This document shows positions 1-35,724 of a DNA stretch of 35,903 nt, piece after piece. Positions within the stretch are counted from its first letter, which is position 1. Each line of letters opens with the position of its first letter. A program made the position numbers and the translations under genes. The notes under the pieces were generated by a model that was not told where the DNA came from, did no database searches, and worked only from the letters and a program-made list of their open reading frames with translations. This DNA comes from a virus: IMG/VR virus record IMGVR_UViG_3300021356_000067, positions 1 through 35,903 of that record; one strand, written 5' to 3'.

Positions 1-484
1 CACTTGCAGACGTAGAAGCTGCCAATATCTTACTGCCATTCTCTAACTCCAAAGATCCTTTGTTCCATGCCACAATACCCTGTTGCATCCATTTGGGCAA
101 GTTTTCGTATGCAGTCTGTAATCTTCCAAGAAGTTCTCTTGCGGTTGCTGCTTTGTTTGCAAGAATACCAATGTTAACACTGTCATTAAAGACAGCATAA
201 TGCAAAAGGTAAGATACGACTGTAGTAGATTTACCAGTCTGTCGTGGCATCTTACAGATATTAAATCTGTTTTCGTGGAAATTATTAATTAACTTCTCTT
301 GAAAGTGATATGGATGAAACTGTGTAAGACCCTCATCAAGAGAAACAATCTTGATATAATTGTTGGCAAAATAAACAGGGTCTTCCTTACATTTCATAAA
401 CTCAAGAATTTGTTCTTGAGTAAATTCAATGGCAGTATTTGCTTTTTTTAGATTAGGATTGCCAAGGTATACATTATCAGGCAT
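1..484 (-). CDS. 17: Large terminase subunit gp17 (TerL), N-terminal part; runs off the window
   Basis: This is the first 161 codons of the packaging motor ATPase/nuclease of T4-like phages. gp17 docks on the portal, drives DNA into the prohead by ATP hydrolysis and cuts the concatemer. I read an ATG at 484 that follows the upstream stop codon after six bases. The translation has an adenine-binding/Q-motif-like region with FHPYHFQ at about residues 56-62, and the terminase Walker A variant PRQTGKST at about 80-87 (T4 has a similar RQ-x-GK-T loop). A hydrophobic strand/helix pair (VNIGILANKAATARELL) follows. Walker A lies nearer the N terminus than in T4, so the leader domain is shorter. Walker B, the coupling motif and the nuclease domain lie beyond position 1. 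Family assignment is strong. No clear Shine-Dalgarno is visible, so it is probably co-translated with the preceding gene. Confidence 0.93.
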   Translation of the reverse strand, partial: MPDNVYLGNPNLKKANTAIEFTQEQILEFMKCKEDPVYFANNYIKIVSLDEGLTQFHPYHFQEKLINNFHENRFNICKMPRQTGKSTTVVSYLLHYAVFNDSVNIGILANKAATARELLGRLQTAYENLPKWMQQGIVAWNKGSLELENGSKILAASTSAS

Positions 485-490
485 AAATTA

Positions 491-2638
491 TCAGCAGTTC
501 CAGGCTCTCAGTGATTTATTGATTCTGCTATCGGGATCGTTTGCAGTTTTGGAGGAAGTTAACTTCTTTTTCATTCCTTTCATTCTCGCACAAAAGCTCT
601 TTCTACGAGGGTTCCCAACTTTCTTTGAAGGTCTCTTAAGATCGCTTCCTGGGTTCTCACGTTCATACGACTTCCTACCTTTTTCATTTAAACCTCCCTC
701 TGGATTCTTACCTGACTTTTTTTGCCAGTCTTCCGTATGTAGGAGGGGTTGTCCTGGTTCATAGTCAGAAACTTCATAATTCCTTACTTTTGCGCCAGGA
801 TAGACCTTTTCAATCTGTGCCTGTACTTCATTTCTTCCAGGAACCTTGACGGATGGAAAGAACATTTGAATGACATACATCTTACCTCTGAAGGTAAGAA
901 ATACTCTTACGATTTGTCCAGTCTTTCTAGGAATCTGAACTGCTTCGCTCATTGGTTTTACATAGTTCTTATCTGGACCAATTTTGCCACCATCACCACC
1001 TTTAAATTTTGGTCCATCACACTCTGCGGTTCCATGTACAGGACACTCTGATCCTTCGTGGGTATGATTGCATCCTTTCTTCTCATCAATCTGCTCACCA
1101 TCATGAATGACTTCATCACCTGCTTTTACGCAACGGTTGTAAGTCTTACCAAACAGTTTCTGGGTTCCTGCTTTCTTATATCCCTTCCAGCACTTCTTAC
1201 CTGCTTCACCAAGTAACTTAGAACCAAGACCTTCGGTTGGTTGAAGTGCATCAGGTGTGATGAGATCAGTAAACTCATACTCTGTTGGTTTGTATTCAGA
1301 TCTCCAATTAGAGAATTCTTCCTTCTTGGTCTTATTACCCCAGTTCTTAGCACCTACTTTACGGCACTTGACCAGTGCTCCAGATGCATATGCAGAAGGC
1401 CATACAGAGTAACGAGACTTGACCTTATGGTAGCAAGCATCTTTCTTACCTTCTTCGAGATCGATATCAATCTCGTCACCAACTTCTACATTGTTCTCAG
1501 CAAACCATCCACGATTTACTTCTATTGCACACAGAATTTCTCCATCAGACTCAACTGGAGTTTCAACGTTTGGTTCTAACTGCTTAATGCTTTCGATTAT
1601 ACCATCTGCTCTGATAAAGGCAATGTCGAGGGGAATTCTGGTATCTCTCATATGGAAAGATTGCTGAGCAACTTCCTCAAACACGAAAAGCATTCCACTA
1701 TTCTTATCCAAACTTTCACGGAACATTAATCCAAGATTGAATTCTTTGATATTGGTTGGAATCTCAACATGGAGAGGTAAGGTTGTGAATTCTTCTTTCA
1801 TACCTTTTGCCTTTCTCTCGTTTGCAACACTATGATCTTTACCAGTTCTAAATTTAGAATCTGGACCAAATCCAGATTTAGCAGAACCATACTTATCTTG
1901 CATATGGCGAATCATGCGCTTGGACCTATCAAACTTGTCAAGACCCTGCTTATCATACTTAGGTGCTTTTTCAACAATTGTCTCTTCATTAGTAACATAG
2001 TCTGCTGCAGTGTCTATGTAATCTGCTGCTTTTGTTATTTTGGATTGGACCCAGGCTTTCAGTTCACCCTCTCCCTTTTTGCCCATTTTTTTCTCCAATC
2101 TTTTTGCAGCATTTTTGATAGTTTTCAGTTCAGAACGTGCCATTGAATACTCATAATCTTTTTTATGTTCTTCAGTTGCCACGTTAATTGCCTTCCCTTT
2201 TCTATCTGGATTTGGATCCTTTGCATTCTTACGACGGAATGCTCTCTCCTCTTCATCTTTGGAGAGATTACGCTTCATTTTGCTAGAACCGCACTTTGGT
2301 TTTGTTGTTTGTCCTGGTTGTCTGGCACAGGGTTTGCCTGCATATTTACCACCCAACTGAACCCACCCAGGCTTGCCATCAGAAGACTTACTCTTGCCAA
2401 ACCAGTCACGCAGAGAACTATCACCACTTTTCGACTCACTCATCCCTCCGCCGTTACCATTTCCATTTCCATTGCTATTACCGTTACCATTGAGTGGTTT
2501 ATCAATACCGACTTCCTCTGGTTCTTTTCCACTACCAGAAAATCTTGCAGTCATCCTCATCCCCTTAGAAATGGGTTTGCATACTTTGTCAGTGTAGCAG
2601 TAAAAATATCCTGCTTTACATTTGCCGCTCTTTGACAT
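491..2638 (-). CDS. Mosaic Cys-containing protein with an embedded DUF192 domain
   Basis: A 715-aa protein of unknown function that looks assembled from short modules. In order: an N-terminal Cys motif (CKAGYFYCYTDKVCKP, about 8-23); a Gly/Asn linker (about 50-65); a basic SLRDWFGKS...GKPCARQPGQ segment (about 73-155); a charged helical region (about 160-280); a convincing DUF192 domain (about 286-395, with GLMFRESL, GMLFVF, IPLDIAFI and EVNRGW); CYHKVKSRYSVWPSAYASG (about 400-434); CWKGYKKAGTQKLFGKTY (about 483-510); a Cys/His cluster CNHTHEGSECPVHGTAEC (about 521-539); and a basic tail ending RKSFCARMKGMKKKL...LRAWNC. From memory, several of these basic modules occur as separate small proteins in marine phages. 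DUF192 is mostly known from bacterial envelope proteins. The position between the fibre gene and gp17 suggests a virion or assembly role, but none is shown. A late-promoter-like motif lies 24 nt upstream. Confidence 0.85.
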   Translation of the reverse strand: MSKSGKCKAGYFYCYTDKVCKPISKGMRMTARFSGSGKEPEEVGIDKPLNGNGNSNGNGNGNGGGMSESKSGDSSLRDWFGKSKSSDGKPGWVQLGGKYAGKPCARQPGQTTKPKCGSSKMKRNLSKDEEERAFRRKNAKDPNPDRKGKAINVATEEHKKDYEYSMARSELKTIKNAAKRLEKKMGKKGEGELKAWVQSKITKAADYIDTAADYVTNEETIVEKAPKYDKQGLDKFDRSKRMIRHMQDKYGSAKSGFGPDSKFRTGKDHSVANERKAKGMKEEFTTLPLHVEIPTNIKEFNLGLMFRESLDKNSGMLFVFEEVAQQSFHMRDTRIPLDIAFIRADGIIESIKQLEPNVETPVESDGEILCAIEVNRGWFAENNVEVGDEIDIDLEEGKKDACYHKVKSRYSVWPSAYASGALVKCRKVGAKNWGNKTKKEEFSNWRSEYKPTEYEFTDLITPDALQPTEGLGSKLLGEAGKKCWKGYKKAGTQKLFGKTYNRCVKAGDEVIHDGEQIDEKKGCNHTHEGSECPVHGTAECDGPKFKGGDGGKIGPDKNYVKPMSEAVQIPRKTGQIVRVFLTFRGKMYVIQMFFPSVKVPGRNEVQAQIEKVYPGAKVRNYEVSDYEPGQPLLHTEDWQKKSGKNPEGGLNEKGRKSYERENPGSDLKRPSKKVGNPRRKSFCARMKGMKKKLTSSKTANDPDSRINKSLRAWNC
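2450..2491 (-). repeat. Imperfect hexamer repeat coding for a Gly/Asn linker
   Basis: Runs of ccattt/ccgtta/ccattg hexamers encode alternating Asn and Gly on the minus strand, near residues 50-65 of the DUF192 mosaic protein. This gives a flexible linker between the N-terminal Cys motif and the SLRDWF segment. Such repeats can vary in copy number by slippage. Confidence 0.7.
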
Positions 2639-2661: not shown

Positions 2662-2668
2662 TATTTAT
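2662..2668 (-). promoter_or_regulatory. Late-promoter-like ATAAATA
   Basis: Minus-strand ATAAATA in the context TTGATAAATAATAAAG, 24 nt before the ATG of the mosaic gene and touching the upstream TGA stop by one base. It matches the core of the T4 late promoter (TATAAATA), which T4-like phages recognise through a gp55-type sigma factor. Assigned by motif and placement only. Confidence 0.6.
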
Positions 2669-5073
2669 CAACCATCAAGTGCTACACTAAGACCAAGTGT
2701 CATACCAGGCAGTGACTGCCAAGAAGTGCCGTCATAGAACTCCATTTTCTTAGTGGTTGTATTAAAAATAATTGCTCCTTCATTAAATGAACCAGCATCT
2801 CTTTGTGTTGTTGTATAAATTGGAGGATAGAATGCAGTAGATGCTTTTAAGGTAGCAGCAGTTATGATTCCAGTGGTGTTGATGGAAACTGTTGTACCAA
2901 TACCCACTGATGCTTCTGTACCATCCTCTTTTTCAAAAGCAATGTTTCCTTGAGCATCTTGCTTTATACTAACTGTGGTTGCAGTTCCAACAATAATCTC
3001 ATCTACACCAGAAATCTTTTTGGCATTAGGATCAAGAACAATTGAACCTGTTCCAATTGTAAGAATACCAGTAACTCTACCATTGCCATTTACAACAAAA
3101 TCTTCACTGTAAAATCCAGTATCTACACCAATGTGCACTTTAGTGGCAGTTACAACTCCAACAGCATTAATACCACCTGCTAAAACATCAATACCAGTTC
3201 TTGCAGTGACAATGCCAAGAGAATCTACATTCTTTACATCCTCATATGTGATTGTTCCGCCGATAGTTATATTGCCATCGACGTACTGGTCTCCACCAAC
3301 ATAGAGTGCAAAGTCAGATCTTGCAGTTGTACCAAGTCCAACATTACTAGTTGTATTGATACCAATAGTATCGTCTACAAATTTTCCCCCAGATCCACCT
3401 CCCCCTACTACCCACTTTCTATTCTTTCGGGAATAAGTTTGTCCATCATTAGGTGCATCTTCAATTCCACCACCACCAATGGTAGCGATCTGTTGTTGAA
3501 TTCTATTGATGAATAATCTGTAATGATTCTGTAGATCATCAAGTGTTGCAAACTTTTGATCTAGAGGAGTTAATGGATCTCTAGAGTTATTTGTTGATGG
3601 ATCTCCAGGTAAAGTTGGGTTATCTTCGGTTAGAAGTTTCTTTTCGTTTATCTCTGAGATAGTTTCTTCGAGATAAGCAATCTTTTCAACTAACTCTTTA
3701 TTTTTTTCTTCTAATGTATCTAACTGAAGTCTTTCAAGAACTTCTTTTATCTCTTCTTTTACAGTTTCAATATTATCATTTTGTTTTTTAATGTGTTGTT
3801 CATTAACAACCAGGTCCATTTGAAGACCTTTCATTTGCTCAGAAATATTATTTCTGAATTTTCCTACTTCTGTCTTAAGGGCAGCATGATATGTTTCATT
3901 AGAATTAATTAAAACACTCTGAATTTCCCTAAGATCTTCAGTAACAGTTTCTTCTAAAAAATTAAATCTCTTATTATATTTTTCAATCTCATTAGAGTAA
4001 TTCTCTAATTTTTCATTATCACTAATCTCTCTTTTCTTGAAATCTTTATAGAGATTACTATATGTCTTAGAGATAGAGTCAATCTCTTCTTTATATTCGT
4101 CAATTACTGTCTGAAGTTCTTCTATTTTCTCAGCAGTTTTCTCAGTTACATCTCCAGAAATAAAATCAATTTTTTCAGAGAGAGAATTTACTTTTGAAAG
4201 AACTTCCTCTTCCAGTTGTTTTACTTCTTCCTCAGACTTGAGTTTGGTCTCAATCAAAAGATTGTTATACTTAGGTATCTCAGTTTCTGTAAATACCTTT
4301 ACTTTTGCGTTGAGATTTTCAATAGTTTCTTTGTAAGAATCTATTGCATTTTTGATAGTCTCTTCAGTTTTTAATTCTGTTTCAGTAAAAAACTTTCTGT
4401 ATTTTGGGAGCTCCTCCTCTACTAAATTCTTTACTTCCTTAGTATTTTTTCTAAAATCTTCTTTGACTTCGGAAATAACATCGGTGTTGAGTTTTTCAAC
4501 TTCTGATAAAGCAGTTGTAACTTCTTTGTTTACATCATTTTTAATAGTATCTAAATTTTCTTCTACCTTATCCCTAAACTTTTCAAATCTATCATCAATT
4601 CTAACTTCAGATTCTGAGATTAATTTTTTATACTTCGGTACATCAATACTCAGAAATCCTTCAACAGAAGTTGATAGACCTTTAAAATCTTCTTTAATTT
4701 GATCAACTGTTTTGCCGTTAATAGATGAAATTTTAGATTCAATCTTTGATATTGATTCTTCTACAAAAAGAAGTTGTGCCATCATGGCACTATCTAAATC
4801 TTCTTGCTTAATTAAATTTTTTATCTCATCCTTTATAGTGATAATTTCACTGGATACGTTCTCTACCTTTTCTAAGTTTTCTTTAAAACTATCGAAAGTA
4901 GAAGTGAAATCGGATAACGATTTAATATGATTTAGATTTGATTTAAAAACATCAAATGCTTCTGAAACCTGTTCAATCTTTTTTGGAGACGCGGCAATAT
5001 ACTCCTCTTTTACTTCATCAAGAGGAGTCTTTTTATTATTTCCAAAAAAATCTGAAGGCTTCTTTAGTGCCAC
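2668..5073 (-). CDS. Long coiled-coil fibre with foldon-like motif; probable fibritin/whisker analogue
   Basis: An 801-aa fibrous protein. Residues from about 20 to 480 are almost continuous, Lys/Glu-rich, heptad-compatible alpha-helix. They contain three related PKY-(K/R/N)-(K/N) segments at about 144, 220 and 263 (VPKYKKLISESE, LPKYRKFFTETE, IPKYNNLLIETK). A Pro/Asn break (about 485-500) leads to EDAPNDGQTYSRKNRKWV at about 536-553, which resembles the trimerising foldon of T4 fibritin (EAPRDGQAYVRKDGEWV). After a Gly linker comes a beta-type region with SLGIVTARTGI and VGVVTAT words, typical of marine phage fibres, ending in GAIIFNTTTKKMEFYDGTSW, a common fibre-tip pattern. I infer a trimeric neck whisker or fibre. 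In T4 wac sits just before gene 13; here the gene sits between gp16 and gp17. The start is GTG, with AGGAGA upstream. Confidence 0.82.
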   Translation of the reverse strand: MALKKPSDFFGNNKKTPLDEVKEEYIAASPKKIEQVSEAFDVFKSNLNHIKSLSDFTSTFDSFKENLEKVENVSSEIITIKDEIKNLIKQEDLDSAMMAQLLFVEESISKIESKISSINGKTVDQIKEDFKGLSTSVEGFLSIDVPKYKKLISESEVRIDDRFEKFRDKVEENLDTIKNDVNKEVTTALSEVEKLNTDVISEVKEDFRKNTKEVKNLVEEELPKYRKFFTETELKTEETIKNAIDSYKETIENLNAKVKVFTETEIPKYNNLLIETKLKSEEEVKQLEEEVLSKVNSLSEKIDFISGDVTEKTAEKIEELQTVIDEYKEEIDSISKTYSNLYKDFKKREISDNEKLENYSNEIEKYNKRFNFLEETVTEDLREIQSVLINSNETYHAALKTEVGKFRNNISEQMKGLQMDLVVNEQHIKKQNDNIETVKEEIKEVLERLQLDTLEEKNKELVEKIAYLEETISEINEKKLLTEDNPTLPGDPSTNNSRDPLTPLDQKFATLDDLQNHYRLFINRIQQQIATIGGGGIEDAPNDGQTYSRKNRKWVVGGGGSGGKFVDDTIGINTTSNVGLGTTARSDFALYVGGDQYVDGNITIGGTITYEDVKNVDSLGIVTARTGIDVLAGGINAVGVVTATKVHIGVDTGFYSEDFVVNGNGRVTGILTIGTGSIVLDPNAKKISGVDEIIVGTATTVSIKQDAQGNIAFEKEDGTEASVGIGTTVSINTTGIITAATLKASTAFYPPIYTTTQRDAGSFNEGAIIFNTTTKKMEFYDGTSWQSLPGMTLGLSVALDG

Positions 5074-5097: not shown

Positions 5098-5520
5098 TTA
5101 TTTATTGTCCTCTTTTAATCCATGTTTGAGCATTTTTGCTAGTTCAGCGGTGGATCCAACAAACAATGCATTATTAACTGTTGAGGGTCCTTTAGACTGT
5201 TTTTCTTCCTCTACCTCTTTAAGTTTTTTCTGAAGTTCCATTAATTTGTCAGTTGCATCAGCGACATTTTTAATTAATTGTCCTGCAACTTCATATGCTC
5301 TTGGCATTTCACTTTCTTGAGCGAGTTCAAGAACTCCGTTTAATGCTTCTTGACCTTTTTCGATTATACTATATAGATTCCCTCTAGTATACTCATAATC
5401 CTTTTTTACATCATCTGAGCTAGGTTTTACATTATCCAACTCTTTTTTAACAACTTCAGCCTTTACTATTTCATCCGAAACATTAAAGGTATCGTTTAAT
5501 TCGTCAAAGTTTTTAGTCAT
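5098..5520 (-). CDS. 16: Small terminase subunit gp16
   Basis: A 140-aa helical protein matching T4 gp16 (164 aa), the oligomeric DNA-recognition and regulatory partner of the gp17 packaging motor. The match rests on the KKDYEYTRGNLY segment (T4 has EDDYGVVRRNMHF), the PRAYEVAGQLI helix (T4 has SPRHMEVFATLM), a central pair of helices likely to form the coiled-coil oligomerisation core, and the C-terminal ALFVGSTAELAKML (T4 has VFMGSPTELMDEI). I start it at the ATG at 5520, which overlaps the gp15 stop by one base (TGATG), a translational-coupling arrangement. An in-frame TTG lies one codon earlier. Unlike in T4, the gp17 gene is not the immediate neighbour; two genes intervene. Confidence 0.85.
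   Translation of the reverse strand: MTKNFDELNDTFNVSDEIVKAEVVKKELDNVKPSSDDVKKDYEYTRGNLYSIIEKGQEALNGVLELAQESEMPRAYEVAGQLIKNVADATDKLMELQKKLKEVEEEKQSKGPSTVNNALFVGSTAELAKMLKHGLKEDNK
5099..5105 (-). promoter_or_regulatory. Late-promoter-like ATAAATA
   Basis: Minus-strand ACAATAAATAATAAAA overlapping the TAA stop of gp16 and lying 26 nt before the GTG start of the fibre gene. It has the T4 late-promoter core and the same placement as the other motifs in this window. Confidence 0.6.
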
Positions 5521-6536
5521 CAAATAAATCCACCATCAAATCCAAAGTTGTCACCATCTTCAATCAGAGCACTATCTGCACCAATTGTACCGATGCTTGT
5601 TGTTGAGGTGGTATAATCAATTCCCTTAACTTCTGCACCAGCAACATGTTTTTCTGCTTTTGTATTATCTCTTCCCCTATCAACAGTAATTTTATTGCCA
5701 GTTTTAGATCTAACAAATAATTCTTCGTCACCAATAAAGATATATTTGTCTGCTAAAATACCACTAGCATCCGCAACTTCAAATGTTTTTGCTGTCGCAG
5801 TAATGTCTGCTGCCAATGTAGTAACAACATTATCAGTATAAGACTTGAGTGCTCTTGCAGTAGCAGAGTAAGTGACCTCTCTTCTTGTATTGGTAGTGTC
5901 TGTTCCAGAGAGATAACTGACAGTGGACCTCTTGATGATATCCTTGGATGCAGACTTGGTAGGTCCAAACAGATATGTTTTTGCAGTAAATCTTAGAGTG
6001 TAATATAGAACTCTTCTAGTAGTAAAATCTCCTTCATAATCATCCTGCATTGTGATACTTTCTAGCACAATCGGAACATCTCTTTTTTCTCTAATTTGAT
6101 CAACCAATTCAATAGAAAGATTATATGCTGGTTGAAAATATGGTAAAATTTGCTCTACAATTTGAAGTGCATCATCATTTAATTTAGTGTAAATGCTTAA
6201 CTCAAACTGCATATTATAGGGAACTGGCATGTATGTTTTACGTGACTCAGTTCCATCATCTTTGTCTTTTGCAACAAATGTTTGAGTAGTAGTTACTTTT
6301 CTACTGGGATCGTAAGTAAGTCCAGTGAACTCAAAAGACATTCGTGGCAATGTAATTGCCATGGGTTTATTCAGATCTGGTGACTGCTCAATTCTAGCCA
6401 AAAACTTTTGAGTAGGACCATATGCCAAAGGAATTCTCACAACGGAACCTTCCTGCTGGATCTCCATAGCATTAAATAGAGTTCCAAAACCAATAATGGT
6501 TTTTCTCAGAATCTCGTTGTAAAAATATTCAAACAT
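5520..6536 (-). CDS. 15: Tail sheath stabiliser / tail completion protein gp15
   Basis: A 338-aa homologue of T4 gp15 (272 aa), the hexameric ring that caps the sheath and tube and meets the neck. The N-terminal two thirds is family-typical: FEYFYNEILRKTIIGFGTLF at the start, MPVPYNMQFELSIYTK near 118-133 and a RVLYYTLRFTAKTYLFGP block near 180-197. The C-terminal part differs from T4. Residues about 235-305 form an added module (TFEVADASG...GDEELFVRSKTG...VDRGRDN...AGAEV) that also appears in the 4,070-aa and 2,561-aa baseplate proteins. This accounts for the extra length. The gene sits between gp14 and gp16 as in T4. A CTAAATA motif precedes it, but no strong Shine-Dalgarno is visible. Confidence 0.9.
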   Translation of the reverse strand: MFEYFYNEILRKTIIGFGTLFNAMEIQQEGSVVRIPLAYGPTQKFLARIEQSPDLNKPMAITLPRMSFEFTGLTYDPSRKVTTTQTFVAKDKDDGTESRKTYMPVPYNMQFELSIYTKLNDDALQIVEQILPYFQPAYNLSIELVDQIREKRDVPIVLESITMQDDYEGDFTTRRVLYYTLRFTAKTYLFGPTKSASKDIIKRSTVSYLSGTDTTNTRREVTYSATARALKSYTDNVVTTLAADITATAKTFEVADASGILADKYIFIGDEELFVRSKTGNKITVDRGRDNTKAEKHVAGAEVKGIDYTTSTTSIGTIGADSALIEDGDNFGFDGGFI

Positions 6537-10784: not shown

Positions 10785-13700
10785 TTATGCAAGAGCGATC
10801 ACTCGGAGATTTTTCAGTTGAGGAACTAGTTCCTGACTTGTTGATGTTAATACAAGTTTGATTCTATAAGATCTAAAGTTTGGAAGATCATCAATAGTAA
10901 ATGTACGTTCAATAAAGTCAGTGTCATATGCACTATATCCTTTCTTGATTGAATTTTCTACAAAAATGTCAGGTCTTCCGTCATTATTCTCTTCATTAAT
11001 TATCTCACCATTAATATCCAGATTTAAATATCCAGGGAATGGTTCAAAGATTGGTTCAAAACCAGGATCTGAATTAATTGCATAGAATGCTCTAATATCA
11101 GCATCTGTAGGAATGTGTGCATCCACAATAATTTTGATTGAAGATGCGGGATTTTCGAGTGTTACTTCCTTAGATACATATTGACATGCACTAGGATCAT
11201 TAAAGAGTGTATTTACTCTAGAATCTGTTGCGTAGTTAACAACTTCAGAATTAACTCTGTTTGATACTGCATAGACACTACATCTTTGAAGTTCAATTTG
11301 AGGAGTTAGTTTAGTATTAGTTGTTCCAAGGAAAAGTCTCATTTGCATCGACTTATTGCCTTCAATAGAATCTAACTTACGATCTTCATTTACTTTAGAG
11401 AAGACTGCTCTTGGAGAATCAAAGAAATTATTTGCATTTAGAACAACATCCTCAAATCCTGCATTTACATAAGGAATTTCATTACCACTAATACTCTGAG
11501 TGGTAACTGTCCTTATTTGACCAGATATAGAGGTTCCTTCAACGGCAATATTGTGTATAGATGGTTTGATAATTTCAAAGGCAATATTTTTGGTAGCCAT
11601 GACATTATCTCCACCAGCGGATTTTGATCTGTTAAGGAATAGTTTGGGTAATCCTACTCCAGTAGATCTATCAATGTTATCAGTGCTTCCGAGAGTTCCA
11701 AACTTTTCAGACATATCAAGTTTGATATGATATGAATCTAATGTTATTGGATTCGCAATGGTTACATCGCTTAAATCGTGAGTTTTGTTAATTCTAGCAA
11801 GACTTACTCCTGCAAGTTCATACTTATAAACTGGTGTGTCTATAGGATATGATTTTGGAGTTGTCCCTCTAGAAATACTTCCGCCAATAGTTGATGATGT
11901 TGTAGAAGTATATTCAATGATCTCTTCACCAATCAAAAGCAGTCCAGTGTTAGTCGCACTGACACCAGCACCTTCAAAGGTAGAGAACACATCTCCTGTT
12001 CCAGCAGTTATTTGAAGTGGATCTGTGGATGACTTGTCATAAGCTGCTGTCAATTTAGTTGGTTTAACATCTGGGAGAACTTTGGATATTCTTACGAAAT
12101 TATCATCAAAATTCATTCCATGATTAACATGATTTACCTTAATATGAAGTCCGTCAGAAATGCTTACTATTCCGTTTGATGGAATGGTAACGTCTCCACC
12201 GACAGACCCTACATCGTTCAGTTCTCTTTCTGTATCAGTATTATCAAAGAATCTAATGGTTCCAGCAGCTCCAGTAATAAATTCGCCTTGAACATTACCA
12301 AGTATTAATTGAGATGTGTGTCCAATACTAGTTAATGTAAATCTTGCATTTCTTCCAACACTTAATCCAGCAGGATCTGATGAAGATGGAAGTGGTGCAT
12401 TTGCACTAATAGTAACTACATCACCAACCTGATAACCATTACCACCATTACTACCAGAAGTGATTGTTGCTGCAATAGCAACTCCATCCCTTATCGTAAC
12501 ACTTGCAGTAGCTTCTGATCCATTTCCAGAAACTGCAATTAGATTTACTCCAGAGTAAGTAATTTGTCCATCTGCTGGTGTGTATCCAACACCTGGATTT
12601 GTAATTGTTAATGTTCCTGTAGCACTAGCACCAACTCCGATCAGATCTCCTTGAGCAGTTCTATTTGAAGCAGTTCCTTGGAAGAAAGTATTACCAAGAG
12701 AATATCTAGCATCAGAAAGTGTCGTTCCTAATCCAACACGAATATCATTTGAAATAATATTCAATGGATTTTCCATCAATTTGGCAATTTGCTTGTTACC
12801 CTCAGTAAGTTCTGGACTATAAAGATCTACAGATCCAGATTCAACAAAATCTGCTCTATACATAGTGAACTTAAGATCTTCCCACTGACTTGCTTCCCAA
12901 GTAGATGCGTTCTGAGACTTAAACAGGGATCCAAGAGTTGGTTGGTTAGAGATGTATGCATCCGTTAGAATATCATTTTCTCCAACTCTAGAAATATAAA
13001 CACTATACTTAGTTGAGTTTGAAATCAAACAGATAGCATATTCTTTACCACCCTCCAGATAAACTGGAGCAGCAAATTCAAATGTAGTTGCTACAGATCC
13101 GTCAGTTGAAGTATTAACATCACTAGGATAAAGGATTACTTCGGAAAGATCAAAATACTTAGGAGTTGGGAAACCATTCTCCATCGTTCTGATCTGCATT
13201 CTAACTGGTGTATCACCATCATCCTTAGTGCGGAAGAAAACATCACACTTCGTTATGAAGATACCCTCAGGATCTTCTTCTTGATCAACCAAGAAAGATT
13301 GTGCAAGGGGATCGTACCAACCAACAATAGATTCACTTGTACTTGCCTGACCAATGTTTCTGGTAGCAGTAATTTCAGTATCAACAGTTCTATTGACGAG
13401 TTCCTCTTCAAAGAGTTTCTTCTGTTCAATTTTTGCATTTCTAATAGAAAGAATTTGTTCTTGAACTGTCTCTAGAATACCAGAAGTTGGATATGCTTCT
13501 TCACCGACAGTAGTAGCAGCATCCTGATCATTATCTGGATCATTTGTTAATGTGAATACATTAGTTCCAGTATCAAAACTAGGATTGTCCTTATTACTTG
13601 CATCGGGAATGAAGAAACTGCCCAACAAAGCCGAAGATCTATCAGTAATAAGTCTGACATTTGTTACTTCTGCTTCTGCTCCACTTGTTTGTCCAGTCAG

Positions 13701-16700
13701 TTTCATTCCTGTCTGAATATAACCAAAGAAATCTCCTTGTGGTTGATCTGCAAGAGAATATGTATCCACATTCAACGTAGTTGAAGTAGAAGAATACACT
13801 TCAGGAACAATTCCACCATTAACATAAGGATTATCTGGATAAACCTCTGTTGGAGAATCGTAATCACCTCTTCTATGATTAGATTGAGCAACTCTAAAGT
13901 TAATAGAAGGATTTACATCCTTTCCTTCTTCCCCAAGTCCTTTATTAATAACTCTTCCCTGAACTGTTTCTCCAACCTGGAATACACCAGAACTCATTGT
14001 GATTTCAATCAATTTAGGAACGCAGTACTTTGTAACTTCCTTCCCATCAAAGAAAGCATAAATTTGAGTACTTGGTTTTAAGTTTGCTGCATAGAATTCA
14101 ATGTTCCTAGATCTTACTGAAGAAATAACTTCCGTGCTAAGAACTTTATCACCAACAGAAAGTTCTTCAAAAGTTTCAGTAACTACGTATTGTGTACCAG
14201 TTCTTGATTTAACACCACTTTCAATTGTATCAGTTACATCCTGCTCAATTGGTTGAGTGGTAGTCTGTCTAACCCATGCAGCAGGTCCGCCTGATCCACC
14301 ATTAATCCATCCACCTCGTCCAAATGTGCGACTACTAGTTGTAGTAGATTCTCTGGTGTCAGTTACAGTGCTTGTAGTACCAGACCAATTTGTTTCCCAA
14401 GAATTCCATACCTCAGCAGCGAATCCAGTTTCAGGATCGACACCATATTTTTCTTCGGCTTCAGACATGATCTGAGAATAATTGCCGATAGTATCAATCG
14501 TTTTTGCTTTTTGTCGAGTTTGATCAACCCAGTTATCAGAAGCAGGTGTTAAGACAATTGTTCCTTGCCAGAAACTAATTAAGAAAGGAGTTACACTTTC
14601 AGTTCTGGTTGCAAGAGTTTGTGATAACCATTCGACTTCAGAATAATCAAGACTGAGAATGTCATTTTGTTTTCTGACATTGGTTCCATCTATAGCAGAA
14701 GTTCTTTTGTCCGCAGTAGGATCTACATCAACAACAGGTCCTGTTTGTAAGGAGAACGAGTTCGTACTATGTTTTGGTCTAAGGATCTTGTTAGCTTGAT
14801 CAATACTATTATTTCTACCAAGTCTCAAATCTTGAGTAGAGAATGATGTAAAGTTATCTACAAAGAATCCAGACTTAAATCTATTGAGACCATTTGCATC
14901 AGGTATAAATTGATTAGCAGTATTTGTTTCAAGTATAGAAAGAGTTGTATAATACTCTAAATTTTTAATTCTATCTTCAAGTTTCTTGATATCCTTCATC
15001 TGATATCTCTTGTACTTCAAGAATTTAACAGATGCCTGTTCTACATTGTGAAGATATGGAGGATATTCTATCGTAGCAAGTTCAATTGCATTAGCAGGAG
15101 ACTCTGGTTGTGCTCTCTTTGGATCATCAGCAGGTGTTCCAAACTTCATCTGCAGTTTTCCATCCTTATGCAAATAAAGTCTATCAATTCTTCCTTGATA
15201 GTATGCATAGTCTAAGAAAATAGTTTCATTAGATGCAAGAATACTTGGAACAGAATTTCCTGTTGCATTAAAAGATCTTCCAAGGAACTCTAAGGGAGAT
15301 CTAGTTCCTTCAGATACTGAATAATTATTGACTCTTGGTCTTAAATCAATAATATCAGTATTCAATACGCCATTAATTGCTTTAACTTCAGTGGAGTAAT
15401 CAAAGTCATTATAAGATTCAACTGTAACAATATCACCATCATCAGAAGAGTCGAATGATGCTGCCTTATAATATACTTTAATTTTGTTTTTTGGAGAATC
15501 GGAATCCGTTTTTCTAGTTATGAAACCATGATTGTAAACCGTTCCTCTCTGTCCAGATCCAAAGGTATAATTTGATGAAATATTAAAGGAAGTTGTATCT
15601 AAACTACTTACTCCTCCAGTGATAGAAGATTCTTGGAATACAACGGTTTCTCCTTCCACAAACTTAAAGTTATTCTTAGGAAGATATCTAAGAGTGGTTG
15701 TATCTTTTATTTCTGCAAATACAGCAACTGCACCGCTTGTTTGTCCAACAATCAATTCTCCAATAGTCATATCTCCAGTTGAGGCCGTAGGCCCATTCAA
15801 CTGAGTTAGAGTCATTTCTGGAGATCCAAAATTAGCATTGGTTAAAGCAGGATCAGCAGTTTCATATATTGCATGAATTTCAATAATATCTGGAGTGTTT
15901 AGTGATATGACATTATCCTGGACTCTAGTTCCAAATGGATAATTTCCATAAGTCAATCCATCATTAAAAGTAGTTGAACCAATTCCAGAGGCAGGACTAA
16001 TTGATTTATCAACAACTAAAGACTTAACTCTATCCTTAATCTTTTTCTTTGACTTTACATTACTCTTTCTAACAGTAGTAATAAGTTGAGCTCCAGTGTC
16101 ATCTGCACCCAACCCTCTAATTTGCAATTCCTTAAGATCCGCAGAGAATGCAAAATTATTTTGAGTTAATGGCTCAGTCGTTCCATCAGATCTGATAAGA
16201 GAATATCTTTCATCAGAATATGAGAGATAAATTTCTCCTTCTGGAAGTGTTACCGATAATAAACTAGTAGAACTTAATTGAGTATTTGTAATATCTACCG
16301 TAAATGGTTTTCTAATTATCAATTCAGCATCTGTCAGATCAACAGCAGCAATATGCTCATTTGGTAATTCTGTGTAGAAAGTTGTATCTGAAGAAGCATC
16401 TAATTCGGTGCTAACAACTTTAAGATCTGATGCTGAAAAGGTTGATGTTGGTAATGTACCATCAGCCACACCAATGACTGTAGTTACCCCAACAACAGTT
16501 ACTTCAGATGTTGTGACACCTACAACTCTTACCAAAATTGGATCTTGAGATGAAGAAAGGTCCGAATATTCAAGTAAATTGTTTTCTTTTATTTTACCAG
16601 GGAATAAAGCATTTGAACTGCTAATTGTACTTAAACCAAGAACTCCATCAAAAGCAGTGACAGAAGCAACTCCTATAGTTACTGATGGTGTTTGTACGAC

Positions 16701-18470
16701 ATTAGCACTAAACGTATTAACTCCTACTATACTAATACCACCTGCTCCCGCAGCTATTCCTGTGTTAGAATAAACAGATTTTACATCTGAAATTCCATAA
16801 GAAGTGATTGCAGTGGCAACTCTACTTTTTGTTACTTCTTGAGTTGAAATTCCACTTCTAAAGACAAGAACTTCATCTTTGACAAATCTACCTTTTTGAT
16901 CGTATACTGTTAAGGCAGTTCCAGCATTAACTGAGGTTCTTAAAAATCCTGTTGCACCACTACTATTTCCTTCGACATACGCAGGAATAGATAACGTAAT
17001 AGTATTATTGACTGTAAGTTCTGTAAAAGGTTGTATGTCATACATTGACATACCCCATTCATTTTCTTGTGGGAAAGATGAATTGTATGAACCAGATTCG
17101 AGTCTAAAGTCGAACACTCTGGCAAGTCCGATTTCTTTCCCTGGAGCAGTTTCAGAATTTACCCCAACTCTCTGATCTCTTAAACTGAGGATAAATGTAT
17201 TACCTACTCCAATAGTTGGTGATCTATAAACACTGTTTAACTTAAGCGTTGGACCAGTGCTATATGGAAAGAACTGATTTTCAATAGTTCTTGTCGTTCT
17301 TGGTTTTGGTACATCGATAAAAGAGGGACTTATTGTTTCAACTTCATAACCTCTAACATATGCTTTACCTGGAGATACTCTACAGATTGCTAAGTCTGGA
17401 CTAGGAGTTGATCCAGCAGCAGTAAATTGACCCTCTTCATACAATCCTTGATTTCCACGATTGTTGTTAAGAGAATTTAAAATGGAAACATTAAATGGTT
17501 TAACAACATAATGACCACTTTCATCATATGTTCTTCTTGCTAAAATATCTGTAAGATCATCATAGAAAACTGCACCACCCCCTTTAGCACTACCTCTTCT
17601 AGTGGGTGTTTGAAGAACTCCATTAATTACGGTTGCTAGTAAAATAAAATTATCATCATTAAAATCATCAAGAGATTTTTTGAATAAACTTGTTGAGATT
17701 TTAAGTCTATCTGCACCAGGAGCTCCATAGTTGTTGAATCCCTGAGAATTATCATTCAAAGATTCATCAGCATTTGAATTTACAATTTCCTCAGAAACAA
17801 AGAGACCAATCCTATAACTAGGTGTATTTGAATATTGATCTAAAACTAAAGATTCTTTATTTACATTTACAAAATAACCACGAATGAAGTAAACTCCATT
17901 TTCAATTTGAAATACCGATCCAGTTGCAGTTGAATTTGCTGGTATAGTATTTGCAAATGGAGCTCCAGCTGAAATGATAGAATTTCCTAATAATCCAGAA
18001 CTTAAAGGCTGATTACAAGTTAAAGATTCGCCATCAGTAAATGTTTGGGTAGTATTATCAGTTCTTGCAGAACCTTGATATGCAATATAAAGAGTTAAGT
18101 TTCCTCTTTCAGAATCTGCAGAGGGAAGAACACTATCAACAACAGCAGTGACCCCAGAAACTTGTCCAGTGATGGTTGTTCCAACTAACTGATCAGCATA
18201 TGCTTCAACAGGAACTCCTTGAAAGGTATTTACTAGTTGTACGCAATAATACAACTGTGAATATCCAGTGTTACCGGGGATTACCTTTGCACCCTCTTTG
18301 AAAAAGTGCTGACCAAATCTTTCTACTTGATTCTGAAGAATCGATTGTAGGGTTGTTAATTCTCTTGCCTGAACTGGATATCCAGGCTTAAAAAGCACCT
18401 TGTGGTAATCGTTCGTCGCATCAAAATCGTCAAAATATGGTGCTACGTTAAGGTTCGTCTGCTGTGGCAT
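10785..18470 (-). CDS. Very large baseplate wedge protein, DUF4815-type (gp10 position)
   Basis: A 2,561-aa virion protein. The N terminus (APYFDDFDATNDYHKVLFKP, GYPVQARELTTLQSILQNQV, then ERFGQHFFKEG) is typical of DUF4815, found in large structural proteins of marine T4-like phages. Later family-typical blocks are RSRNIEFYAANLKPSTQIYA near 1453, GWYDPLAQSFLV with an FRTKDDGDTPV strand near 1715-1770, and a C-terminal beta domain ending FRSYRIKLVLTSTSQELV...LRVIALA. Between these are inserted modules: TSGA-type units, a GVGYTPADG/NGGNGYQVGD repeat (about 1947-2067) and an IGEEIIEYTS...SRGTTPKSY unit (about 2150-2220). Position after gp8 matches T4 gp10, which is 602 aa. Functional equivalence to gp10 is inferred from synteny. 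It starts seven bases after the gp8 stop and carries no promoter motif of its own. Confidence 0.87.
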   Translation of the reverse strand: MPQQTNLNVAPYFDDFDATNDYHKVLFKPGYPVQARELTTLQSILQNQVERFGQHFFKEGAKVIPGNTGYSQLYYCVQLVNTFQGVPVEAYADQLVGTTITGQVSGVTAVVDSVLPSADSERGNLTLYIAYQGSARTDNTTQTFTDGESLTCNQPLSSGLLGNSIISAGAPFANTIPANSTATGSVFQIENGVYFIRGYFVNVNKESLVLDQYSNTPSYRIGLFVSEEIVNSNADESLNDNSQGFNNYGAPGADRLKISTSLFKKSLDDFNDDNFILLATVINGVLQTPTRRGSAKGGGAVFYDDLTDILARRTYDESGHYVVKPFNVSILNSLNNNRGNQGLYEEGQFTAAGSTPSPDLAICRVSPGKAYVRGYEVETISPSFIDVPKPRTTRTIENQFFPYSTGPTLKLNSVYRSPTIGVGNTFILSLRDQRVGVNSETAPGKEIGLARVFDFRLESGSYNSSFPQENEWGMSMYDIQPFTELTVNNTITLSIPAYVEGNSSGATGFLRTSVNAGTALTVYDQKGRFVKDEVLVFRSGISTQEVTKSRVATAITSYGISDVKSVYSNTGIAAGAGGISIVGVNTFSANVVQTPSVTIGVASVTAFDGVLGLSTISSSNALFPGKIKENNLLEYSDLSSSQDPILVRVVGVTTSEVTVVGVTTVIGVADGTLPTSTFSASDLKVVSTELDASSDTTFYTELPNEHIAAVDLTDAELIIRKPFTVDITNTQLSSTSLLSVTLPEGEIYLSYSDERYSLIRSDGTTEPLTQNNFAFSADLKELQIRGLGADDTGAQLITTVRKSNVKSKKKIKDRVKSLVVDKSISPASGIGSTTFNDGLTYGNYPFGTRVQDNVISLNTPDIIEIHAIYETADPALTNANFGSPEMTLTQLNGPTASTGDMTIGELIVGQTSGAVAVFAEIKDTTTLRYLPKNNFKFVEGETVVFQESSITGGVSSLDTTSFNISSNYTFGSGQRGTVYNHGFITRKTDSDSPKNKIKVYYKAASFDSSDDGDIVTVESYNDFDYSTEVKAINGVLNTDIIDLRPRVNNYSVSEGTRSPLEFLGRSFNATGNSVPSILASNETIFLDYAYYQGRIDRLYLHKDGKLQMKFGTPADDPKRAQPESPANAIELATIEYPPYLHNVEQASVKFLKYKRYQMKDIKKLEDRIKNLEYYTTLSILETNTANQFIPDANGLNRFKSGFFVDNFTSFSTQDLRLGRNNSIDQANKILRPKHSTNSFSLQTGPVVDVDPTADKRTSAIDGTNVRKQNDILSLDYSEVEWLSQTLATRTESVTPFLISFWQGTIVLTPASDNWVDQTRQKAKTIDTIGNYSQIMSEAEEKYGVDPETGFAAEVWNSWETNWSGTTSTVTDTRESTTTSSRTFGRGGWINGGSGGPAAWVRQTTTQPIEQDVTDTIESGVKSRTGTQYVVTETFEELSVGDKVLSTEVISSVRSRNIEFYAANLKPSTQIYAFFDGKEVTKYCVPKLIEITMSSGVFQVGETVQGRVINKGLGEEGKDVNPSINFRVAQSNHRRGDYDSPTEVYPDNPYVNGGIVPEVYSSTSTTLNVDTYSLADQPQGDFFGYIQTGMKLTGQTSGAEAEVTNVRLITDRSSALLGSFFIPDASNKDNPSFDTGTNVFTLTNDPDNDQDAATTVGEEAYPTSGILETVQEQILSIRNAKIEQKKLFEEELVNRTVDTEITATRNIGQASTSESIVGWYDPLAQSFLVDQEEDPEGIFITKCDVFFRTKDDGDTPVRMQIRTMENGFPTPKYFDLSEVILYPSDVNTSTDGSVATTFEFAAPVYLEGGKEYAICLISNSTKYSVYISRVGENDILTDAYISNQPTLGSLFKSQNASTWEASQWEDLKFTMYRADFVESGSVDLYSPELTEGNKQIAKLMENPLNIISNDIRVGLGTTLSDARYSLGNTFFQGTASNRTAQGDLIGVGASATGTLTITNPGVGYTPADGQITYSGVNLIAVSGNGSEATASVTIRDGVAIAATITSGSNGGNGYQVGDVVTISANAPLPSSSDPAGLSVGRNARFTLTSIGHTSQLILGNVQGEFITGAAGTIRFFDNTDTERELNDVGSVGGDVTIPSNGIVSISDGLHIKVNHVNHGMNFDDNFVRISKVLPDVKPTKLTAAYDKSSTDPLQITAGTGDVFSTFEGAGVSATNTGLLLIGEEIIEYTSTTSSTIGGSISRGTTPKSYPIDTPVYKYELAGVSLARINKTHDLSDVTIANPITLDSYHIKLDMSEKFGTLGSTDNIDRSTGVGLPKLFLNRSKSAGGDNVMATKNIAFEIIKPSIHNIAVEGTSISGQIRTVTTQSISGNEIPYVNAGFEDVVLNANNFFDSPRAVFSKVNEDRKLDSIEGNKSMQMRLFLGTTNTKLTPQIELQRCSVYAVSNRVNSEVVNYATDSRVNTLFNDPSACQYVSKEVTLENPASSIKIIVDAHIPTDADIRAFYAINSDPGFEPIFEPFPGYLNLDINGEIINEENNDGRPDIFVENSIKKGYSAYDTDFIERTFTIDDLPNFRSYRIKLVLTSTSQELVPQLKNLRVIALA

Positions 18471-20066: not shown

Positions 20067-23000
20067 TCATCCGAATTTTTTGAACCTAATATATCTGGTT
20101 CTATAAACTTTCGATGAAGTAGATATACCAGTAAATTCATTTGTTCCTATTCCGGATAAGGTGCGTGCTGGATACGAAAGTTCTTTAGTTCTAGCATTTA
20201 CGATAACTTTACCCCAAGAGTATTCTCCAAGGAATGATCCTGTTGAGAATCCAGAAACTCCATTTGGATTTATATTGGTATTCACAGTAACTTTAGCAAC
20301 ACTGGTTGTAACTCCAGCGATTACTTGAGTTGCTATTCCAACAGAATTTACGACATACGCATTATCGAGATATTCGGATCCAATTCCAACAATTGTGGTA
20401 TTATTGGTTCCAAGAGCAGTAATGCTAGTTGATGCTGTTCCCAAGTTAGAATTTCTTATTATGAAATGATCTCCAATAGACAATCCGCTTATGGTTACAG
20501 CGGTTCCAACCAAATCAGTATCCCTCATTACAGAGTCTAGAGGAATGTGAAGATGGAACATTAACCCTGTTGAACCAACACCAATAGAAGTGGTTCCCAG
20601 TCCAACGATTATTCCAGAATCTCCAGAATAAGAGGAGACATCACAAGACTCTGTTTGTTGTGCAGGAGGTCCGATAAGGACTAATGGTGGATTAGTATAA
20701 GTATATCCAGCACCAGGATTAGTAATAGTAATTCCAGTGACAACCCCATTAGAAATTGTTGCTGTTGCAGTCGCTGTTGTGGATCCTATACCAACACTTA
20801 CATCAGGAGTTGTTGAATATCCAACACCACCATCATTAATCGTGATTGAAGTAATAGTTCCAGCGGATGAAACTACAGCTGTTGCTGCTGCTCCAGTAAC
20901 AACTACTGGATTTACTAACTTTATTCCTTTTTGAATGGTGTTTCTGAATGTAGGATCTATGTTTTCATTATTAAGATCAAATAATGGTCTCAATCTATCA
21001 ACATAGACTATAGTAGAACCAATACCAACAGAACTAATAATATTTGCAGTTGGATTGATAACAGGTTCATAAATTTCTCTGTCTTTACCAACTTCTTGAC
21101 CGTTGATGATCTTATCTTGAGTTTGTCTACACCATGTTATTGGTCTCTCAAAAGTAGTATCAGTAACATTGCCTGGTCCAAAATATGGAAGAGTATTGCA
21201 CTTATCAACATTTGTGATTGAACTAATTGTTCTAGTATCTTCTTGCTGATATGGTTTTTGGCCCAGATCTGGATTATAATTTAAAGTAACCTCATCTCCA
21301 TATTTAAGAGTTTCAATAACTTCCCTATCAATAACATCCAAATCATCTCCGCTTCCTTTATAGAAAACGATATTAAGAGTGTCACCAATCCTTAACGGTT
21401 CTGAGAAAGTTATTTGAGAACCACCATCAAACTGATAAGATTCTCCTGGACGCTGAAGTATTTCATTTACAAATACTAAAAGTAATTGGTCAAGTTCAAT
21501 CTTTGATCCTTTTGATTTGTTAATAGATATTGAAACACCAGCTTTGATTAATGGGAAATCAACTCTAGTACCGTCAATAAATTCGGAAACATCATCAAAT
21601 GTATCAAGAACACCTAAAGACCATCCAGTAAATTCGTCACTAATGACTTTTTCTATCTCAACTTCAAATTGGTTTGAGGATGAGAACGATGAAGTGGTAG
21701 GAATTCCAGTTGTTCCTCCAATAGCAACCGTTAATTGCTCACTATTACCATAACCATATCCCGTATTAGTAATTTCAAAATCAATTACACTAGATCCTTG
21801 TCCAACAACAACACTAACTTTAGCTTCTGTTCCAAATCCCGTTGTTCCAGAAACATACTCTAATGATAAATTGCTATATGAAAGTGGAGAATCAATTACA
21901 ACGAAAGGTGGATCGGAATGAGTATATCCAGTTCCAGGATTGGTAATAGTAACAGCGGTAATATGACCATCAGCAATAGATGCAGTTCCAATAGCGACTA
22001 GATTTGGGGTAGAGAGACTTGTAGTACCAACACTAACATTAACAGTTGTTTGAATTCCAGATCTATATCCAGATCCAGAGTTCCCGATAGAAACTGAAGA
22101 AATTGTTCCTAATCCAGAAACAATTGCTGTTCCTCCTGCAGCAACTAAAGGTTGATATCCAAGACCCTCCTGAGATCCAACGGAAACAATTATTCCTCCT
22201 TTCGGGAAAGTAGAAACACCAACGTCATTTGTTAATGTTCTGGATGCACCAGTAAAAGTAATAGAGGTGATTCCAGTATTTTCAGAGAGAGTAAAGTTAT
22301 TTGCTCCTCCAGTAACTTGATATATGTCATTAATTAATACAATTGCACCTTCATCACTAATTCCAGTAACATTGCTACCATCAGACTTTAAAGTGAACTG
22401 ACTTTCAGTTCCATTAAATTGATCTGAAATATCATCAAAAATGTAGTTTTTATAATATGTTTCATTAGCAGTATCTGGCTGAGCCGTCCTCATGAAACTT
22501 CTTCCTTGGAAACTAGAACCAGTTGTTATACCAGTAAAGTCTCTCTGGTCGGGAGGATTTGTAATAGTTCCAATTGGAGTATTTCCATATGGTGCTTCAA
22601 CAAAATTCAAAGTATTGCCAACAATGTTATAGTTTCCAACGACTTTTGTTACTAAATCGCCAGTTGAAAGTCCGGTCTGAATGGTTGTTCCCATCCACCC
22701 TCTACGAACTGAAACTCTGTTTGTGGATCCAATACCAACACCTTCAATTTTCATTATTTCATCACCAACTTTAAATAGATCTCCTCCAAAGAATGAAGTT
22801 ATTCCAGTAAAGTCAATAAGATTATCTGTACTTACTACATTATCGCCCAAGGTTGTTGTAACTGCAGTAGAGACAACTGGAGATTGAATGAGATTGTCAA
22901 TGGCAACTAATACTTTTGGATTTTGATTTGTTGCGGTGAATGTATGAGTCTGATCAACACCAAGGGAACCAAATGAAGTTAAATCAACAATCTTTGGAAC

Positions 23001-35007: not shown

Positions 35008-35014
35008 TATTTAT
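35008..35014 (-). promoter_or_regulatory. Late-promoter-like ATAAATA
   Basis: Minus-strand CTCAATAAATACC. Its TAA is the stop codon of the 237-aa gene, and it lies 17 nt before the 53-aa gene's ATG. It has the T4 late-promoter core. Confidence 0.6.
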
Positions 35015-35724
35015 TGAGGGTCTAAAGGTCGCCCATCTTGTGATTTGTACATATCTTCTGGTTTTTCTTCTTCTTTTTCGCGTTCTTTTGCTGTTTTCCA
35101 GAAATATTCGTCCTCTCTACCCATCCCAAGACGATCATAACCGTTTTCAACACTATAATATTGAGTTGAAACCTTAAAATCAGGCATTTTGGGGTCAACA
35201 GGTGTCAAACTATTATCAAAAATACGCATTCTGTTGTTTGGATACAGTGCATACTGTCCATTTTCCAGTTCAATCAGGTTATGTGACTTATGCTCAGCTG
35301 GATTTTCACTTGTTGCATAGTCAATCGTATCAGGATCTTGATGATAATTGTCTATTGTACAAATATATGTACCTCTTTGAATACCAAAATCTCTTGTATA
35401 GAGTTCATAATCCATAGAACCAATGAATTGCTTGGTTACAGACACTACACCATAGTCCATACAGTTCCAAAACTGTAAATTGGGTAGATCCATATCAGGA
35501 CTTGGTGTCTCTGGATCGCTTACAAATGCACTAATCGGCAATTTATCATACATTGCCGCATATTCTGGTAAATATGTCTCAAAATAAAAAGCGCGTCCAG
35601 GTATCGACTTACACGATACCCAAACGCCCTTAACAAATTCACCATGACCAAATTGATGGTCAGTGAGATATTCTTTTCTTACCCATACTTCAACTGAAGG
35701 AAGGTTACAAATAAGTGCTGCCAT
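35011..35724 (-). CDS. Conserved phage protein of unknown function, 237 aa
   Basis: A 237-aa soluble protein that I associate with a conserved hypothetical of T4-like cyanophages, without a named function. It is rich in aromatic and acidic residues: N-terminal SVEVWVRKEYLTDHQFGHGE, then VWVSCKSIPGRAFYFETYLP, NLQFWNCMDYGVVSVTKQFI and ENGQYALYPNNRMRIFDNSL. The C-terminal 30 residues are highly charged (KTAKEREKEEEKPEDMYKSQ) and probably flexible. No signal peptide, membrane segment or catalytic motif is evident. It lies between a tiny basic protein and the gp25 unit. A GTAAATA motif lies 23 nt upstream, but no close Shine-Dalgarno is visible. A virion-associated or assembly role is possible from context only. 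Confidence 0.85.
   Translation of the reverse strand: MAALICNLPSVEVWVRKEYLTDHQFGHGEFVKGVWVSCKSIPGRAFYFETYLPEYAAMYDKLPISAFVSDPETPSPDMDLPNLQFWNCMDYGVVSVTKQFIGSMDYELYTRDFGIQRGTYICTIDNYHQDPDTIDYATSENPAEHKSHNLIELENGQYALYPNNRMRIFDNSLTPVDPKMPDFKVSTQYYSVENGYDRLGMGREDEYFWKTAKEREKEEEKPEDMYKSQDGRPLDPQ

Follow-up and report, generated by a model that had tools for sequence, protein, structure and literature searches.

The window, i.e. the whole stretch of 35,903 nucleotides analysed here, comes from a T4-like cyanophage and encodes, beside the large terminase gene, a 715-aa protein that is an array of exchangeable modules and a member of the cyanophage family T4-GC119 / phrog_727. Within this array the DUF192 domain is an optional in-frame cassette, cleanly gained or lost at one site. 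On balance, the protein is probably a minor, virion-associated accessory protein in which the module array serves as carrier of exchangeable passengers, probably inside the head.

The module-array gene and its neighbourhood

The gene was defined from its ORF and translation and starts with ATG (Table 1). Genes in this part of the window follow the order gp15-gp16-fibre-module-array gene-gp17, all on the same strand and with gp17 downstream; thus the position beside the large terminase given in the first-pass annotation was correct, and the minus strand, which had not been given there, can be added. Synechococcus phage S-SM2 shows the same order, plus one extra small gene. The phrog_727 profile matched residues 66-715 of the protein (E 1.2e-143). 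With a pI of 9.4 and a net charge of about +36 the chain is strongly basic, the DUF192 cassette (net about -16) being the main acidic exception. The full-length AlphaFold2 model had a mean pLDDT of 46 and was largely disordered or of low confidence, with values of about 55-78 in the DUF192 core; such a poor model is expected of a disordered chain.

Elsewhere in the window, a phage ferredoxin-family protein is encoded beside baseplate wedge genes (35011-35724, minus strand; phrog_3704, E 4.5e-115). Two very long ORFs of 4070 and 2561 aa (20067-32279 and 10785-18470, both minus strand) resemble, by gene order and size only, the giant baseplate-wedge and VrlC-like virion proteins of phage S-SCSM1 (8137-20499 and 23462-31273 in that genome).

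Module composition

The 715-aa chain was cut into eleven segments, and HMMs built from IMG/VR homologues were mapped onto all ORFs of the fetched loci. Besides DUF192 and DUF6321, the chain contains five or more further short modules that are basic or carry Cys. The mosaic proposed initially, DUF192 plus four or more short segments rich in basic residues or containing Cys, was recovered, with such segments at residues 1-31, 69-156, 397-441, 480-508, 517-543 and 637-715. The last of these holds a second named domain that had gone unnamed in the first-pass annotation, DUF6321 (PF19846; residues 643-713, E 2.5e-22, 79.8 bits vs cutoff 28.5).

Table 1. Modules of the 715-aa protein and neighbouring genes in the window
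Feature	Position	Strand	Evidence
715-aa module-array protein, T4-GC119 / phrog_727 member	491..2638	(-)	ORF, translation, phrog_727 profile
M1, residues 1-31, KCKAGYFYCYTDKVCKPI, three Cys (C7, C14, C20)	2546..2638	(-)	HMM; present, absent or moved in relatives
M2, residues 69-156, LRDWFGKSK...GKPCARQPGQ...KPKC, basic, two Cys (C104, C116)	2171..2434	(-)	HMM; 342 phage records
M3, residues 159-219, charged, helical, AWVQSKITKAADYIDTAADY type, optional	1982..2164	(-)	HMM
M4, residues 228-283, basic, charged helical, optional	1790..1957	(-)	HMM
DUF192 cassette, residues 284-396 (Pfam 290-392)	1451..1789	(-)	Pfam, PDB sequence and fold, clean presence/absence
M6, residues 397-441, DACYHKVKSRYSVWPSAYASGALVKCRKVGAKNWG, two Cys (C402, C425)	1316..1450	(-)	HMM; 366 phage records
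M7, residues 480-508, CWKGYKKAGTQKLFGKTYNRC, C483 and C503	1115..1201	(-)	HMM; doubled or moved in relatives
Residues 517-543, CNHTHEGSECPVHGTAEC, C523, C532, C540, putative metal-binding Cys/His cluster	1010..1090	(-)	Sequence, HMM
M8, residues 565-628, beta-beta-alpha-beta domain	755..946	(-)	AlphaFold2 pLDDT 83; HMM
M9, residues 637-715, DUF6321 (PF19846), very basic, ends RAWNC (C683, C715)	494..730	(-)	Pfam; 551 phage records
Large terminase gp17, N-terminal part, runs off window	2..484	(-)	phrog_5989 E 2.3e-52, PF03237
Tail-fibre-like coiled-coil protein, neighbour	2668..5073	(-)	phrog_30742 E 1.2e-50
Small terminase gp16, neighbour	5098..5523	(-)	phrog_445 E 1.3e-55

The helix of M3 was predicted by AlphaFold2 with low to moderate confidence. 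A search of the M8 model against the PDB gave no significant match (best E 0.12 for phi29 p6, TM about 0.4) and therefore no function was drawn from it; its matches among viral structures were members of the same family only, including the S-SCSM1 virion protein. In the putative cluster at residues 517-543 the sequence varies in relatives and the Cys/His residues are conserved. A recurring motif, F/Y-S-x-W-R-x-E/D, is exemplified by FSNWRSEY at residues 442-449. Its core F/Y-S-x-W-R was found in 63 of the 273 module ORFs vs none of 894 other ORFs of at least 200 aa, an enrichment that we leave uninterpreted because the module ORFs are mutually related.

A widespread family with reshuffled modules

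A tblastn search (E<=1e-5) matched the 715-aa protein to 498 of 50,697 phage records, nearly all of them cyanophages. The protein, initially judged difficult to account for as a standard component, is thus part of a widespread cyanophage family. T4-GC119 has been described as a hypothetical protein in the petE-PTOX-gnd-zwf cassette (Sullivan et al. 2010, PMC3037559). The label is carried by S-SM2 SSM2_109, S-SM1 SSM1_115 and P-SSM4 PSSM4_160, and Syn9 gp114 matches phrog_727. The usual place of the family includes the gp16-gp17 interval; the P-SSM4 member sits elsewhere, in the cytidyltransferase locus.

Metagenomic relatives show more than 60 module arrangements (combination and order), counted over 264 distinct complete ORFs in a sampling biased to the query protein; the record counts from isolates (DUF6321 551, M6 366, M2 342) are less biased. 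Modules can be absent, doubled (M7) or reordered, with M3 before M1 in S-SM2 and the order M2-M7-M6 in S-CREM2 gp160. In line with the earlier proposal of a fusion, parts of the array occur as separate proteins in the split forms surveyed. DUF6321 alone forms an 84-aa ORF in pelagiphage HTVC035P and cyanopodovirus P-SCSP1d, in several phages M8 stands alone as an ORF of some 110 aa directly behind the module-array gene, and in some contigs (L016, L065) the array is split over two ORFs. Capsid decoration by the free DUF6321 protein, whose gene follows the capsid gene in P-SCSP1d, was considered and rejected, as the related P-SCSP1u capsid has no cement proteins (PMC10575957).

The family and its DUF192-bearing form (S-SM2) are already in GenBank, hence the object itself is not new and its novelty is moderate. 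Our literature searches found no paper on DUF6321 or on the modular architecture, cassette behaviour or virion-proteome connection of the family, and titles and abstracts on domain shuffling with cyanophage and virion yielded nothing specific.

DUF192 is a cleanly exchanged cassette

The DUF192 domain (PF02643), expected at residues 286-395, was found with E 3.8e-26 (91.5 bits vs cutoff 27; profile positions 2-96 of 96), and homologues of the protein did not show one continuous known fold. Solved DUF192 structures matched by sequence (3m7a E 3e-10, 3pjy E 6e-10) as well as by fold, when the predicted model was searched with Foldseek (3m7a E 2e-5, 3pjy E 2e-4); an NCBIfam scan gave a sub-cutoff match only. 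The motifs GLMxR, GMLF, F-W-M-x-N-T and PLD are kept, except for the Trp, the Asn and one Ala-to-Pro position. Residue 329 is His in all 76 distinct phage domains vs Trp in 80 of 80 retrieved cellular domains, a comparison for which one of the two search patterns limited this position to Trp or His.

In the window protein DUF192 is inserted in frame between M4 and M6. Five sets of homologues differ by its presence at this one site, with flanks mostly more than 80% identical. L056 with and L073 without the domain share 97% identity before and 95% after the site. L226 differs from L120 by one in-frame block (ADYVTNE-EFTTLPL...DEIDIEE-AAGEKDACY vs ADYVTNE-AAGEKDACY), the C-terminal halves of this pair being more diverged (64%). 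L064/L067 vs L228, L077 vs L288 and L296 vs L311 provide further backgrounds with and without DUF192. Among cyanophages, DUF192 was seen in five records from three isolate phages only, S-SM2 and Bellamy being two of the isolates with the domain, and distant versions (31-38%) occur in three unannotated gut-phage records; a literature search on DUF192 in phages found nothing relevant.

With a mean identity of 82%, the 76 distinct phage domains group together in a single clade (support 0.85), separate from the 80 cellular domains, to which they are at most 51% identical. The best cellular matches, with 38-50% identity, came from Spirochaetes, Verrucomicrobia, Deltaproteobacteria and others. As cellular matches are scattered over phyla and the phage domains form a single clade, no donor is named; cyanobacteria are not the evident source. 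No signal peptide or hydrophobic segment precedes the phage DUF192, whereas 66 of 78 complete cellular relatives have such a hydrophobic segment, and this argues for a location in the cytoplasm or the virion and not in the envelope. An exported or envelope setting is common for cellular DUF192 as a typical context, not as a definition of the family, and it does not appear to be the setting of the phage protein.

Homologues in virions

A full homologue comes from S-SCSM1, a phage most closely related to S-SM2 (PMC9602691). This protein, SSCSM1_29, has the composition M1-M2-M6-M7-M8-M9; its gene occupies the gp16-gp17 interval, and the deposited record labels it 'virion protein'. We counted 48 'virion' tags in that record vs 45 MS-reported proteins (PMC9602691). 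These tags include a RegA-type repressor and NMNAT and leave out both terminase subunits, and thus look MS-derived rather than predicted; mass spectrometry is apparently the source of the SSCSM1_29 tag. S-CREM2 distributes the modules over two proteins, gp137 (M8 and M9, between gp16 and gp17) and gp160 (M2-M7-M6), and the MS proteome of its virions contains both, gp137 with 4 unique peptides and gp160 with 7 (Table 3 in PMC10665884). S-SZBM1_139, which carries M7 and adjoins the cytidylyltransferase, is in the virion list of its phage with 4 peptides (Table 1 in PMC9146016); the DUF6321 ORF of S-SZBM1 (SSZBM1_192) is missing from that list (PMC9146016). The S-SM1 and Syn9 homologues are still annotated as hypothetical, though both phages had proteomics. 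Authors in two of the three virion studies (PMC9602691, PMC10665884, PMC9146016) themselves caution that abundant lysate protein may be carried over. All in all, we consider virion association of the phrog_727 family likely and well supported, and by homology the protein of the window phage would be found in its own virion as well.

A further observation concerns S-CREM2 gp160 (L089 44343-45236). Near its start, GATGFTGAAAPEGPVAGYDPLM is close to a segment of the phage's own major capsid protein (L089 34482-35852), where GADGFTGAAAPGGPNAGFDPVM occupies about residues 63-84 and is directly preceded by LLTE-APTQAVG, probably a cleavage site of the prohead protease. Three further ORFs begin with this motif, namely SSCSM1_97, which is tagged as a virion protein, PSSM4_163 of P-SSM4, annotated as 'major head protein', and one in L168; SSZBM1_134 contains INEEAPTNSVG. 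Judged from these sequences, the shared motif may be a mimic of the capsid N-arm that docks small proteins in the head.

Passengers, fusions and a second locus

In L491/L492 and L493 a single ORF of 847 or 835 aa (L491 2953-5493, L493 2953-5457) encodes a fusion of cytidylyltransferase, zeta-toxin/AAA-type kinase and the phrog_727 N-part with M2; DUF6321 is in the ORF that follows. In many other contigs an M7- or M6-M7-bearing ORF starts at the end of the cytidylyltransferase ORF, in several followed by an M1-M2-M9 ORF. In many cyanophages and contigs the modules have a second locus, immediately behind the gene of the virion-associated cytidylyltransferase (T4-GC190), e.g. at L113 4989-6362 and 6390-7478 (S-SZBM1_139 and _140) and L085 8-2130. 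When 64 diverse module ORFs were scanned with Pfam, the matches besides DUF6321 were DUF192 (8), zeta kinase (2), DUF5661 (2) and two single DUF matches. Recognisable passengers are the exception, and most family members have none.

Role of the protein

The protein can be pictured as a flexible basic chain that would combine short Cys-containing modules with two or three small folded domains and be present as a low-copy accessory in the particle of a T4-like cyanophage. The array would most likely keep the protein enclosed in or attached to the particle, probably in the head interior, a location to which we assign an even chance, and would bring swappable passenger domains, DUF192 being the one of the window phage. 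We infer that the protein might be delivered along with the DNA and that DUF192, as active passenger, would act inside the host. Of the initial suggestion of an internal head or host-delivered protein, the association with particles fits the virion proteomes of relatives, while location and delivery are extrapolated. More tentatively, marine T4-like phages could use the array as a general cargo scaffold, in which Cys modules would dock the chain in the capsid and exchangeable cassettes (DUF192, nucleotidyltransferase plus zeta-type kinase, others) would reach the host with the DNA.

Detection of homologues in virions, a gene position among tail-fibre, neck and terminase genes and the optional, in-frame DUF192 with clean boundaries would also suit an external or neck/tail accessory, whose modules attach to tail, neck or capsid surface. 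DUF192 would then be a replaceable domain on that surface, much like the Ig-like domains that are frequent insertions in structural proteins of tailed phages. We regard such an external accessory as rather unlikely, as a strongly basic, Cys-rich and mostly disordered chain is unusual for an exposed part and the nucleotidyltransferase/kinase fusion makes little sense outside the particle. Slightly less probable still is a host-takeover or metabolic protein of infection, i.e. the product of an auxiliary gene that is a mere contaminant of virion preparations; DUF192 is a cellular domain and the gene adjoins the petE-PTOX-gnd-zwf metabolic cassette in several phages (PMC3037559), but module proteins were found in three independent virion studies, one of which has a full homologue and another both parts of a split array, and DUF192 has no evident origin in cyanobacteria.

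A packaging accessory, as also suggested in the first-pass annotation, would help gp16/gp17 during DNA packaging and be partly retained in the particle. The gp16-gp17 position in many phages speaks for it; however, variable genes are known to cluster in this interval (PMC3037559), the P-SSM4 member is encoded at another locus, optional modules and split forms are ill-suited to a core motor part, and no evidence for such a role was found, which makes this explanation highly improbable. The two-ORF arrays of L016 and L065 could point to an assembly error or to a frameshift that fused adjacent genes, but such an artefact is refuted by the recurrence of the same long architecture in many independent contigs and three sequenced isolates, and its probability is negligible.

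For the favoured accessory protein with exchangeable passengers, virion proteomes, interchangeable modules and a DUF192 that comes and goes make the role of T4-GC119 directly testable, a family present in hundreds of cyanophage genomes and mostly 'hypothetical' since 2010. If the array carries cargo into cells, this would explain enzyme delivery at the start of infection by phages of abundant marine cyanobacteria and would provide a context for testing DUF192 activity.

Comparison with known systems

The internal head proteins of T4 (IPs, Alt) are variable accessory proteins that are packed in the head and injected. Their likeness to the window protein is a functional analogy only, and an unsystematic look at the N-terminus of the 715-aa protein revealed no obvious capsid-targeting sequence of the type that gp21 cuts in such proteins. 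With cellular DUF192 proteins (PF02643, COG1430; 3m7a, 3pjy) the window protein has domain and fold in common, and nearly all conserved positions are kept; the retrieved cellular proteins, however, are short (median 168 aa) and mostly start with a hydrophobic segment, whereas the phage domain is embedded in a longer chain and has no such segment. Among DUF6321 (PF19846) proteins, the C-terminal module of the window protein scores well above the cutoff, and elsewhere the domain is also a free 84-aa protein. T4-GC119 / phrog_727 members (Syn9 gp114, SSM1_115, SSM2_109) share the same modules and the same gp16-gp17 neighbourhood. They differ in that module number and order vary, with M1, M3, M8 and DUF192 not detected in Syn9, and in that most members are without DUF192, which S-SM2 has in common with the window phage.
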